Shown: piece by piece, positions 32,029 to 35,911 of the stretch | Layout of the letters: the number at the start of each line of letters is the position of its first letter | How positions within the stretch are numbered: the stretch's first letter is position 1 | Assembly (NCBI RefSeq): GCF_004114375.1 | Contig: NZ_CP034692.1 | Span: 620,001 to 684,000, forward strand | From: Halorubrum sp. BOL3-1 | GTDB taxonomy: Archaea; Halobacteriota; Halobacteria; Halobacteriales; Haloferacaceae | Direction: 5' to 3' | Length of the DNA: 64,000 bases | Notes under the pieces: model-generated | Told to the model about the DNA's origin: nothing | The model's input: the letters and a program-made list of their open reading frames with translations, nothing else | The model's database searches: none | Made by a program: the position numbers and the translations under genes

Positions 32029-32388
32029 CTACGACTCGCGGTACAGCAGGACCGCGAGAACGGCGATCAGCACGGCCTGTGCGACCTTATCGACCGCGTG
32101 GCTCGGCGGGATCGGAGGAACGGGGTTGAGTACCCACCACATGACGATCTGGCCAGCGGTGAAGGGGATCCCCAGCGCGTACACCGCGCGTCGGTGGTAG
32201 CCGGTGACGATCGCCGTCACGCCCGCGCCGAACCCGAGCGTCGCGAAAAGGAAGAGGATCATGAACGTCCCACCGAACTGGATACCAAGGACGACGTGGG
32301 CGGTCCCCGTCACGGTCGCCGCGAGGACCCCGATCCAGTGGAGGGGCGTCAGCGATTCGGTGTCGACGCCGGTATCGGTGTGTGTCAT
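32029..32388 (-). CDS. Small haloarchaeal membrane protein, function unknown
   Basis: The protein is about 119 residues from ATG 32388 (MTHTDTGVDTESL), with four hydrophobic segments: HWIGVLAATVTGTAHVVLG, FMILFLFATLGFGAGVTAI, AVYALGIPFTAGQIVMWWV and AQAVLIAVLAVLLY. The frame is open to 32439, but the 17 extra codons are poor and a TATA-like AGAATAAAC near 32420 fits the ATG chosen. I do not recognise the family. It is convergent with the phosphatidyltransferase and divergent from the truncated-gene operon. Confidence 0.7.
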   Translation of the reverse strand: MTHTDTGVDTESLTPLHWIGVLAATVTGTAHVVLGIQFGGTFMILFLFATLGFGAGVTAIVTGYHRRAVYALGIPFTAGQIVMWWVLNPVPPIPPSHAVDKVAQAVLIAVLAVLLYRES

Positions 32389-32460
32389 AAACACATGGAA
32401 TACAGTTTCGGTCGGTTTATTCTTACCCCCTCGCCGCACCCGGGTTCGGCTTCGCGGGGG

Positions 32461-32480
32461 CTTTATATCGGACCGGTCCG
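32461..32480 (+). promoter_or_regulatory. TATA box with adjacent 12-bp palindrome upstream of the truncated-gene operon
   Basis: CTTTATATC (32461-32469) is followed directly by the perfect palindrome CGGACCGGTCCG (32469-32480). The first gene of the operon starts at 32536, so the leader would be about 45 nt. The palindrome covers the zone between TATA and start site, a common repressor position. Confidence 0.45.
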
Positions 32481-32535
32481 TACTATCAATAATGCCACAC
32501 CGTCTCAGTCGTCCGTTGCGGACGGGTGAGTCTGA

Positions 32536-32787
32536 GTGAACGACGGCGCCGGACGCGCGGTGGAGTTCGCCGGACCGGAGCGCGTCGACGCGGTCCCCAT
32601 CGACGACCCCGTCCCCGGTCCGGACGAGGTGGTCGTCGAGGCCGCAGTCTCGGCGGTGAACGCGGGGTCGGAACTGCTCGCGTACCGCGGGGAGCCCGAC
32701 CCCGGAACCGTCGCGGACGCGCCGACCGCGTACCGACGGCTCGCGGACGAGCGGGACGCCGCCCTCCAGATCCTATTCACCTACTGA
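32536..32787 (+). pseudogene. Zinc-type alcohol dehydrogenase with its catalytic core deleted
   Basis: Only 83 residues remain of a medium-chain zinc-dependent dehydrogenase of about 330. The first 55 resemble the N-terminus (AVEFAGPERVDAVPI, then VSAVNAGSELLAYRGE) and the last 23 (TAYRRLADERDAALQILFTY) resemble the extreme C-terminus of haloarchaeal homologues. The zinc and NAD(P) domains between are missing, yet the frame is kept and the stop still overlaps the next ATG by one base (TGATG). It cannot be an active dehydrogenase. The comparison to full-length relatives is from memory. Confidence 0.65.
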
Positions 32788-33026
32788 TGTACGAACTCAC
32801 CGTCACCGAGCCGTTCGTCGCACAGCACTACCTCACCGTCCCGAATCTGCCGGCCGACGGGGCGACGCCCAACGACCACCCCGACGGGAACCCGAGCGCC
32901 GAGCGGCCGGCCCGGGCGCTGTTCGACGCGCTCGCAGACGTCGACGCCCCCGCCGCGACCGAACTGACCGTGGCCGTTCACGAGGACGACGTCGCGCGCG
33001 TCTCGTACTCGGGCGCGCTGGAGTGA
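32787..33026 (+). pseudogene. 6-pyruvoyl-tetrahydropterin synthase-like protein with internal deletion
   Basis: The 79-residue product keeps the N-terminus of the archaeal PTPS/QueD-like family (VTEPFVAQHYLTVP) and the C-terminal part (NPSAERPARALFDAL, then ELTVAVHEDDVARVSY). About 50-60 residues between are missing, including the HxH zinc ligands. The frame is intact and its TGA overlaps the GTG of the glycosyltransferase. Compared with the normal length of about 120-130 it should be inactive as a pterin synthase. Confidence 0.65.
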
Positions 33027-34177
33027 CGGAGATGCGCGTCGCCCTCGTGCTCGCCGGCGACATCGACTCGGCGTCCGGCGGCTTCTACTACGACCGTCGG
33101 CTCCGCGACCGCCTCCGCGAGCGCGGACACGCGGTCGCGGTCGTCTCGCTCCCGCGGGGGTCCTACCGGGAGCGCCTCGCGCCGAACCTCCGCGCCCGCC
33201 GGCTCGCGGACCGGCTCTCCGGGTTCGACGTCGTCGTCGAGGACGGGCTGGCGCACCCGTCGGTGCTCGCTGTCAACCGCCGGGTTGACGTCCCGACCGT
33301 CGCCCTCGTCCACATGATCGCCTGGCGGGCGCGGGCGGCTCGGAGAACGACGGAAACGGACGTCGCGGGGCGCGTCCGCACCGAAATCGGTCGTCGGGGT
33401 GTCGCGGCTGTCGAGCGCTGCTTCCTTCGGGGGGTCGACGCCGCGGTGTACAACGCCGAGACGACTCGGCGCGACGCGGCCGGACTCGGCGGTCCGGACC
33501 GGTACCTGGTCGCGCCGCCGGCCGGCGACCGATTCGAGCCGGCGATCGAAGCGTCCGGGATCCGAACGCGGGCGCGATCCGGGCCGCTTGAGGTGACGTT
33601 CCTCGGCAACGTCGTCCCGCGGAAGGGACTCGACGCGCTCGTCGGCGGCGTCGCCCGGCTCGACCCGGACGAGGTCGACTGGCGGCTGACGGTCGTCGGT
33701 GACCGGACCGTCGCGCGCGATTACGCTCAGTCCGTCGCGGACGCGGCCGCGACGGCCGGGATCGACGACCGGATCCGCTTCGCCGGCCGACTCGACGACG
33801 AGGCGGTCGCGGCGCGGCTCCGCGAGAGCCACGTCCTGGCGGTCCCCTCGCGCTACGAGCCGTTCGGGATGGTCTATCTGGAGGCGATGGGGTTCGGCTG
33901 CGTCCCGCTGGCGACGACCGCGGGCGGGGCGGCCGAGTTCGTCCGCGACGGGGAGTCCGGGCTCCTCGCATCGCCCGACGACCCCTGCGCCGTCGCTCGG
34001 GCGCTCCGGGATCTCGACGACCGCGACCGACTGGCCGAGATGGGCGTCGCCGCGCGCCGCGACTACGAGGCGCGGCCCGGGTGGCCCGAGACGCTCGACC
34101 GCGTGGTCGACTTCTTGGAGACCGAGGCCGACGCGGCTGCCGCCGGCCGACGGAAGCCGAGAGAGGCGGAGCCGTGA
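33023..34177 (+). CDS. Glycosyltransferase family 4
   Basis: The 384-residue GT-B enzyme has an N-terminal RVALVLAGDIDSASGGFYYD and a C-terminal nucleotide-sugar domain with FLGNVVPRKGLDAL and the E-x7-E motif in PSRYEPFGMVYLEAMGFGC. The start is GTG 33023, overlapping the previous stop as GTGA; ATG 33032 is the alternative. Unlike its neighbours it is full length. It presumably transfers a sugar to a small molecule or lipid made by the ancestral pterin/dehydrogenase/methyltransferase operon; the acceptor is unknown. Confidence 0.85.
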   Translation: MTEMRVALVLAGDIDSASGGFYYDRRLRDRLRERGHAVAVVSLPRGSYRERLAPNLRARRLADRLSGFDVVVEDGLAHPSVLAVNRRVDVPTVALVHMIAWRARAARRTTETDVAGRVRTEIGRRGVAAVERCFLRGVDAAVYNAETTRRDAAGLGGPDRYLVAPPAGDRFEPAIEASGIRTRARSGPLEVTFLGNVVPRKGLDALVGGVARLDPDEVDWRLTVVGDRTVARDYAQSVADAAATAGIDDRIRFAGRLDDEAVAARLRESHVLAVPSRYEPFGMVYLEAMGFGCVPLATTAGGAAEFVRDGESGLLASPDDPCAVARALRDLDDRDRLAEMGVAARRDYEARPGWPETLDRVVDFLETEADAAAAGRRKPREAEP

Positions 34178-34608
34178 CCGACCACGCGACGTGCCTCGAC
34201 GCCGCGCCCGCGGTCGACGCGCTCTCGTCGGTGGCGCCGATCGCGTACGCCCCGATGACGTACGACGGTGCGACGACGGTCTCGTCGGCCGATCCGGACG
34301 ATGAAGACGTCCTCAGGACGTATCACCGTCACATGAGCGAGTACCGCGCCGGCGGGCCCGACGGGGCGACAGCGCTGGCGCGAGCGGTGACTGACGTCAT
34401 CGCGACCGGGCCCTCGTCGTGGCGGATCGAGCCGCCGTACGCGGACGGCGGGCGGACCGTCCTCGCACACCCCCTCAACACGATCGAGTCCGCGGTCGCC
34501 GAGACGGGCCGCGACGCGAGCGACTGGGCGGTGCGCCGGCGAGCGGCGCTGGCCTCCGGCAGGCTCGAGTACGCGGCACGGAATCGGGACCTGCTCGTTC
34601 GCTCATAA
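34174..34608 (+). pseudogene. C-terminal part of a class I SAM methyltransferase-like gene, core missing
   Basis: The 144-residue product starts at GTG 34174, overlapping the glycosyltransferase stop as GTGA. From residue 24 (APIAYAPMTYDGATTV) to the end it resembles the C-terminal half of a haloarchaeal methyltransferase found in the same operon type. The SAM-binding Rossmann part with a GxGxG loop is absent; only about 20 N-terminal residues precede the junction. It therefore seems to be a third internally deleted gene in this operon. Family assignment is from memory and moderate. Confidence 0.5.
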
Positions 34609-34930: not shown

Positions 34931-35911
34931 TCAGTCGGTGCCGGCCGTCCGAGGCTCCGACTGCGTGAGCGGATCGCCGTCGACCGGCTCGTCGGGGTTG
35001 GCTTCGACGGCCTCCGTGGAGAGGCCGATCTGGGCCCACGCGCCGACGTCGTCTCGGACGTGGACCGTGCCGCGATGGATCGTGACCGCGTTGGCGATGT
35101 GGAGTTGGACCGCGTTGAGCAACACGTCCGCCTCGAGCGGTTGTCCGCGGCGTTTGATCCCGTCGACGCCGGCACCGTCGGGGACGTCGAAGGCGCGCTG
35201 GGCGATCACCGGTCCCTGATCGAGGTCGGTCGTCACGTAGTGGGCCGTGACACCGGCGATCCGGACGCCGGCGTCCTTCGCCTGTCGGTACGCCTCCGCG
35301 CCGGGGAACGCCGGCAGGAGCGAGGGGTGGACGTTGATGATACGCCCCTCGAAGCGGAAGACGACCTCGGGCGAGAGGATGCGCATGTAGCGGGCCAACG
35401 CGATCAGGTCGACCTCGTACTCCGCCAACAGGTCGAGCAGCCGACCCTCGTCGGTGTTGCCGCTGCCGTCGCCGATGTCGTAGAAGGGCTTGCCGTAGCG
35501 CTCCGCGAGCGACCGGAGGTCGCCGCGGTTCCCGATCACGACCGGGATCTCCGCCTCGCCGTCCTCGGCGAGTCTGTCCTCGGCTTCGGCCTCCAGAAGG
35601 GCCTCTGGCGCGTGAGACTCTTTGGTAACGAGCAGCGCGACACGACGGGCGTCACGGTCGCTCGGGAAGCGGACCTGGATGTCGACGTCGAGTTCGCGGC
35701 TCAGGTCGGCGAGCTCGCGCCGGAGGTCGGCACGGGACGCCTCCATCTCCGAGGTGTCGACGCTGCTCGTCATCCGGAAGACGCCGTCGCGGACCGCCTG
35801 ATCGAGGTCCTCGATGTTGACTCCCTCCTCGGCCAGCAGAGATGTGAACCGCTGAATAAGTCCGGCTTTATCTCCGCCGACAACCGTGATCTCGGTCAGT
35901 TCACGGGTCAT
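34931..35911 (-). CDS. purU: Formyltetrahydrofolate deformylase
   Basis: The 326-residue protein has an N-terminal ACT domain (TEITVVGGDKAGLIQRFTSLL) and a formyltransferase-fold catalytic domain with NVHPSLLPAFPGAEAYRQA and GVTAHYVTTDLDQGPVI. It hydrolyses 10-formyl-THF to formate and THF, supplying formate for purine synthesis or balancing one-carbon pools. The C-terminal 30-40 residues are an acidic extension. It is divergent from purS-purQ, so both sides of this 178-bp promoter region serve purine or one-carbon metabolism. Confidence 0.9.
   Translation of the reverse strand: MTRELTEITVVGGDKAGLIQRFTSLLAEEGVNIEDLDQAVRDGVFRMTSSVDTSEMEASRADLRRELADLSRELDVDIQVRFPSDRDARRVALLVTKESHAPEALLEAEAEDRLAEDGEAEIPVVIGNRGDLRSLAERYGKPFYDIGDGSGNTDEGRLLDLLAEYEVDLIALARYMRILSPEVVFRFEGRIINVHPSLLPAFPGAEAYRQAKDAGVRIAGVTAHYVTTDLDQGPVIAQRAFDVPDGAGVDGIKRRGQPLEADVLLNAVQLHIANAVTIHRGTVHVRDDVGAWAQIGLSTEAVEANPDEPVDGDPLTQSEPRTAGTD

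Follow-up and report, generated by a model that had tools for sequence, protein, structure and literature searches.

The window, that is, the whole 64,000-nucleotide stretch of DNA analysed here (G000:C3:620001-684000), lies on a single 3.37 Mb chromosomal contig of a member of the genus Halorubrum. Four consecutive ORFs, designated g1, g2, GT4 and g4, span positions 32536-34608, in line with the positions given in a first-pass annotation of this DNA. The ORFs and a promoter-like element are as follows:

32462..32467, + strand: TATA-box-like TTTATA, putative operon promoter (sequence and alignment)
32536..32787, + strand: g1, remnant of a zinc-type alcohol dehydrogenase, 83 codons (alignment; no Pfam match)
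32787..33026, + strand: g2, PTPS-like remnant, 79 codons (alignment; below the PF01242 cut-off)
33023 (GTG) or 33032 (ATG)..34177, + strand: GT4 glycosyltransferase, intact (Pfam PF00534/PF13692)
34174..34608, + strand: g4, remnant of a SAM methyltransferase, 144 codons (alignment; no Pfam/NCBIfam match)

The locus was compared with that of eight relatives, one genome per species: G045, G015, G029 (H. sodomense), G046 (H. tebenquichense), G050 (H. xinjiangense), G011 (H. ezzemoulense), G025 and G008 (H. coriense). All eight showed the same gene order and carried full-length g1 (349-353 aa), g2 (123 aa), GT4 and g4 (257 aa), so that the short proteins of the window are not a family shared by relatives. 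Each remnant aligned to both ends of its full-length gene, with the ends joined in frame. Compared to the relatives, 264-265 codons are missing from g1, 44 from g2 and 113 from g4, in each case by a single in-frame deletion; only about 7-10 codons of the N-terminal part of g4 are left. The proposal of the first-pass annotation that three genes had lost their cores in frame around an intact GT4, while retaining joined N- and C-terminal parts, was thus borne out by the alignments.

The deletions removed the nucleotide-binding VFGxGVVGLL segment of g1, the HxH metal motif (HSH) of g2 and SAM motif I (EVGAGT) of g4. In line with this, no PF00107 (ADH_zinc_N) match was found for g1 in Pfam, compared to 73.9 bits for the G045 homologue, and g2 reached 17.7 bits against PF01242, where the gathering cut-off is 22.4 and the ancestral homologue scored 66.7 bits. 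For g4, no match to a SAM-binding domain (PF13649 and relatives) was obtained in Pfam or NCBIfam, while the G045 homologue scored 31.5 bits.

The GT4 protein, by contrast with these remnants, matched Glycos_transf_1 in Pfam with 100 bits and was 79-84% identical to its counterparts in the relatives, with dN/dS values of about 0.3-0.45. Its alternative start, the ATG at 33032, was better conserved than the GTG at 33023. Since this GTG is GAC in 5 of the 8 relatives, and the ORF caller picked an ATG nine bases past the GTG position for GT4 of G029, it is questionable whether g2 and GT4 overlap by GTGA. The TGATG overlap of g1 and g2 was present in G029, but a 13-base overlap was found in its place in G045 and G015. 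The TTTAT of the promoter-like element was kept in all aligned relatives.

Two further genes of the window were recorded. At 34931-35911 (minus strand), a purU gene (formyltetrahydrofolate deformylase-like) stands on a long branch of 0.22, and its protein shares only about 81-84% identity with any of the relatives. At 32029-32439 (minus strand), a divergent small membrane protein is encoded which, by eye, resembles ones adjoining or lying between pathway genes elsewhere in Halorubrum, namely:

L076 9214-9600: look-alike small membrane protein (by eye)
L085 3067-3486: look-alike small membrane protein (by eye)
L088 5765-6124: look-alike small membrane protein (by eye)

Short direct repeats were found at all three joins, as the first-pass annotation had anticipated:

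32710..32719, + strand: g1 join, GTCGCGGACG, matching both parental ends
32864..32868, + strand: g2 join, GACGC; parental repeat GACGCTC, 7 bp, exact in G046
34196..34202, + strand: g4 join, TCGACGC; exact 7-8 bp direct repeat in 8 of 8 relatives

The g1 repeat is 10 bp long in G045, G015 and G046, where one position is mismatched, and 4-6 bp are exact in the nearest relatives. In a random-breakpoint test for microhomology, the g4 join reached significance with each of the eight relatives (P about 0.01). The results for g1 and g2 were mixed, because the ancestral repeat survives in the nearest relatives only; there the signal was clear, with best P values of 0.002-0.012. Judging from these junctions, each loss is a single deletion joined at a GC-rich direct repeat of 4-10 bp.

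With the full-length proteins of G045 as queries, a genus-wide search revealed a second cassette in G000, 0.73 Mb from the operon, with intact homologues of precisely those three genes that the operon has lost (identity is to the lost genes):

C3:1378859-1379869: island dehydrogenase, 48% identity
C3:1379918-1380277: island PTPS, 46% identity
C3:1380307-1381116: island methyltransferase (MTase), 38% identity

These genes are preceded by a GTP cyclohydrolase III gene and a divergent sulfatase-like gene, and GT4 is absent from this cassette. Both the island PTPS and ancestral g2 score above the PF01242 cut-off. The GC content of the island is 0.54-0.62, compared to 0.65-0.74 in its surroundings, and its flanks are contiguous in G045, G015 and G033, where the site is empty. 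Base composition and the empty site suggest that the island was most likely acquired horizontally. Just 3' of the island MTase lies an AT-rich repeated element (L072 11182-11590), of which further copies occur in G000, G033 and G042; it is possibly a miniature mobile element tied to island movement. In G008 and G042, the cassette lies upstream of the same TatD-like gene, as does a diverged form of it in G024, G027 and G037 (loci L074, L075, L079, L080 and L081), and this position may be a recurrent or an ancestral cassette site.

A parallel second case was found in G033 (MAG SW_8_68_21), which carries the same island, with 90% DNA identity over 5.3 kb, at another chromosomal site. Its old dehydrogenase gene carries two deletions: one is internal and in frame, and the other fuses the core to the last PTPS codons; this fusion is in frame across a GCGCTG repeat and ends at the PTPS stop codon beside GT4. 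GT4 itself is intact, and the MTase gene downstream of it is frameshifted and truncated. In GT4 trees, moderate support was obtained for a placement of the intact, island-free G045, G015 and G046 between G000 and G033. Because these genomes separate the two, the losses in G000 and G033 are best read as independent.

The second genome also bears on the possibility, raised by the first-pass annotation, that the genes were collapsed at repeats by an assembly or sequencing error. That the deletions end at direct repeats would fit such an artefact, but 4-10 bp is well below the repeat length at which assemblies collapse, and the chromosome is a single contig. A background scan, which is less sensitive for short genes, compared 464 kb of G000 with 400 kb of G045; about 200 orthologues showed no further large in-frame core deletion, the only other indels being of 15-22 aa. 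Further, the same three genes carry other deletions in G033, which was assembled independently. On the strength of the scan and the second genome, an artefact was rejected as highly improbable.

Highly improbable, too, is the reading that the short products are functional miniproteins under selection. Its supports are the three frames that are still open and dN/dS values of the remnants to relatives that are mostly about 0.25-0.6. These values, however, mainly record the history before the deletions, and GC-rich DNA easily keeps frames open. The catalytic and cofactor segments are gone, the same short forms occur in no relative and the G033 remnants differ strongly in shape. The g4 remnant (34196-34608) showed dN of about 0.22 and dS of about 0.6-0.78 to every relative, around twice the GT4 values, which perhaps reflects an older divergence or import via recombination. 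The use of remnant acceleration as a clock was dropped, since g1 and g2 were not clearly faster, the sample was small and g4 had diverged at dN as well as dS.

The association between island and operon decay was analyzed in the 46 genus members with GT4, with relatedness left in the counts. Old genes were lost or broken in 4 of 5 genomes with the island, compared to 0 of 41 without it, or conservatively 3 of 41 when the incomplete or error-prone, island-free G035, G040 and G051 were counted as losses (Fisher P=3e-5 and 1e-3, respectively, both uncorrected for relatedness). The carriers are G000 and G033, which are gutted, G043, which has the island copies and GT4 only, G008, whose operon is intact, and G042, whose PTPS gene is broken by a 1-base change in a CCCC run. 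This last frameshift, a possible homopolymer sequencing error, was set aside as strong support.

G004, G028 and G047 lack GT4 and the other three genes as well, and G024, G027 and G037 have a different, GT4-free cassette type, with the operon-type GT4 absent and a different GT4 adjoining. Across the genus (loci L076-L091), the pathway genes occur as the four-gene operon, as a pair of GTP cyclohydrolase III and GT4 with the remaining genes dispersed, and as GT4-free cassettes. At the search threshold, the dehydrogenase was detected in 121 of 148 genomes of the family, nearly all with one strong copy. Therefore, the module is widely kept, and in G000 it is kept through the island.

The first-pass annotation held three in-frame core deletions to be unlikely by chance. 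In 400 kb of G045 genes, however, direct repeats 45-1000 bp apart shared codon phase in 66% (at least 6 bp), 72% (7 bp) and 77% (8 bp) of cases, compared to 33% expected without periodicity. Since 66-77% of repeats of 6-8 bp are in phase, the chance probability of three in-frame losses is about 0.3-0.45 and not 1/27, and with this measurement, the three events were rejected as proof of selection. As the window case was picked for being in frame, G033 alone provides a fresh test of frame preservation. Upstream of GT4, 4 of 4 deletions in G000 and G033 are in frame against the 66-77% expected, although the events are few.

These counts leave some room for selection on translational coupling, as suggested earlier, in which only in-frame deletions would have survived since GT4 translation would need ribosomes that terminate in the upstream remnants. 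In Haloferax volcanii, overlapping genes are coupled by termination-reinitiation, which requires a very short stop-start spacing and fails at about 20 nt; a short 3' end of the upstream gene, its final 15 nt, is enough in E. coli (PMC10666635). In line with coupling, the promoter-like element is still present, the G033 fusion of g1 and g2 ends at the g2 stop codon beside GT4, and the frameshifted MTase of G033 lies downstream of GT4. However, mutational bias by itself would leave 66-77% of deletions in frame, and the g4 deletion of G000 is in frame although g4 is downstream of GT4. Further, the probable GT4 start, the conserved ATG, does not overlap g2, and in G042, a frameshifted PTPS gene lies upstream of an intact GT4, unless this is a sequencing error. 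We therefore regard coupling selection as possible but rather doubtful as the explanation; given the mutational bias, the data do not require it.

The module comprises GTP cyclohydrolase III, a PTPS-family protein, a dehydrogenase, a methyltransferase and GT4; frequent companions are a sulfatase-like protein and a fusion of an oxidoreductase with an aldo-keto reductase. This composition may point to a glycosylated, methylated pterin- or pyrimidine-type compound as the pathway product. Literature searches returned nothing usable on halopterin/sulfohalopterin or on a haloarchaeal PTPS with a glycosyltransferase. A housekeeping GTP cyclohydrolase III, about 52% identical to the island copy, was intact in 52 of 52 genomes; its role is probably a separate one, in riboflavin/F420. 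The housekeeping enzyme of Haloferax volcanii (arfA, HVO_1284) is needed for riboflavin (PMC8305020), and PTPS-IV has been credited, as unpublished work, with archaeal F420 synthesis (PMC5041015).

The best explanation for the gutted operon involves a cause absent from the first-pass annotation, the second dehydrogenase-PTPS-MTase cassette elsewhere in the genome. We consider it probable that redundancy, or xenologous displacement, with ongoing erosion of the operon accounts for the observations. The ancestral operon would have encoded four proteins of one pathway, namely a zinc-type dehydrogenase, a PTPS-family enzyme, GT4 and a methyltransferase. The lineage would then have gained the distant low-GC island with GTP cyclohydrolase III, dehydrogenase, PTPS and methyltransferase genes, making the three old genes redundant. 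GT4 would have stayed intact because the island carries the other three genes but no GT4, leaving it as the only old gene still needed and, presumably, still in use. The redundant genes, their decay presumably following the redundancy, would have eroded via deletions between GC-rich direct repeats of 4-10 bp. The shared codon phase that short repeats tend to have in GC-rich genes would account for the losses being largely in frame, and such deletions would not block expression of the downstream gene.

Several findings run counter to this scheme. G008 carries the island and an intact operon; therefore, redundancy need not cause decay. Although a GTP cyclohydrolase III came with the island, the housekeeping copy was never lost among the 52 genomes. 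The island genes are only 38-48% identical to the lost ones, and because of this distance, that they do the same job is something we infer. The divergence of the g4 remnant (dN 0.22, dS 0.61) exceeds that of its neighbours and is left unexplained by redundancy.

This locus provides a replicated snapshot of partial operon replacement, in which two non-sister lineages share a cassette, located differently in each, and have both lost one set of three resident genes while keeping the gene that the cassette lacks. GT4 is thereby tied to the PTPS, dehydrogenase and methyltransferase pathway, which yields a testable prediction for the product of an uncharacterised haloarchaeal module. Further, codon-phase bias is a general, measurable reason for in-frame remnants in GC-rich genomes, and a null expectation to beat before selection for frame preservation is claimed. 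As a tentative extension, GC-rich operons might lose genes singly without polar effects, since codon periodicity keeps most deletions between short repeats in frame, and the in-frame remnants might double as minimal leader ORFs that keep the downstream gene translated.

With regard to known systems, the PTPS family (COG0720) includes ancestral g2 and the island PTPS, which pass the PF01242 cut-off, whereas the g2 remnant falls below it and has lost its HxH motif. The joins resemble short-repeat deletions formed by replication slippage or end joining, being single and leaving one repeat copy of 4-10 bp, but differ in the strong codon-phase bias of GC-rich coding DNA, whose products are mostly in frame. 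As in haloarchaeal termination-reinitiation (PMC10666635), overlapping or near-adjacent stop and start codons were kept after the deletions; here, however, the most conserved GT4 start has no overlap.

In xenologous gene displacement, an acquired homologue replaces a resident gene. The present case is probably of this known kind and no new kind of system: diverged homologues lie on a low-GC island, relatives lack the island at that site, and the resident copies decay. It differs in that several genes of one operon would have been displaced together, the non-redundant member was kept and the remnants are in frame.
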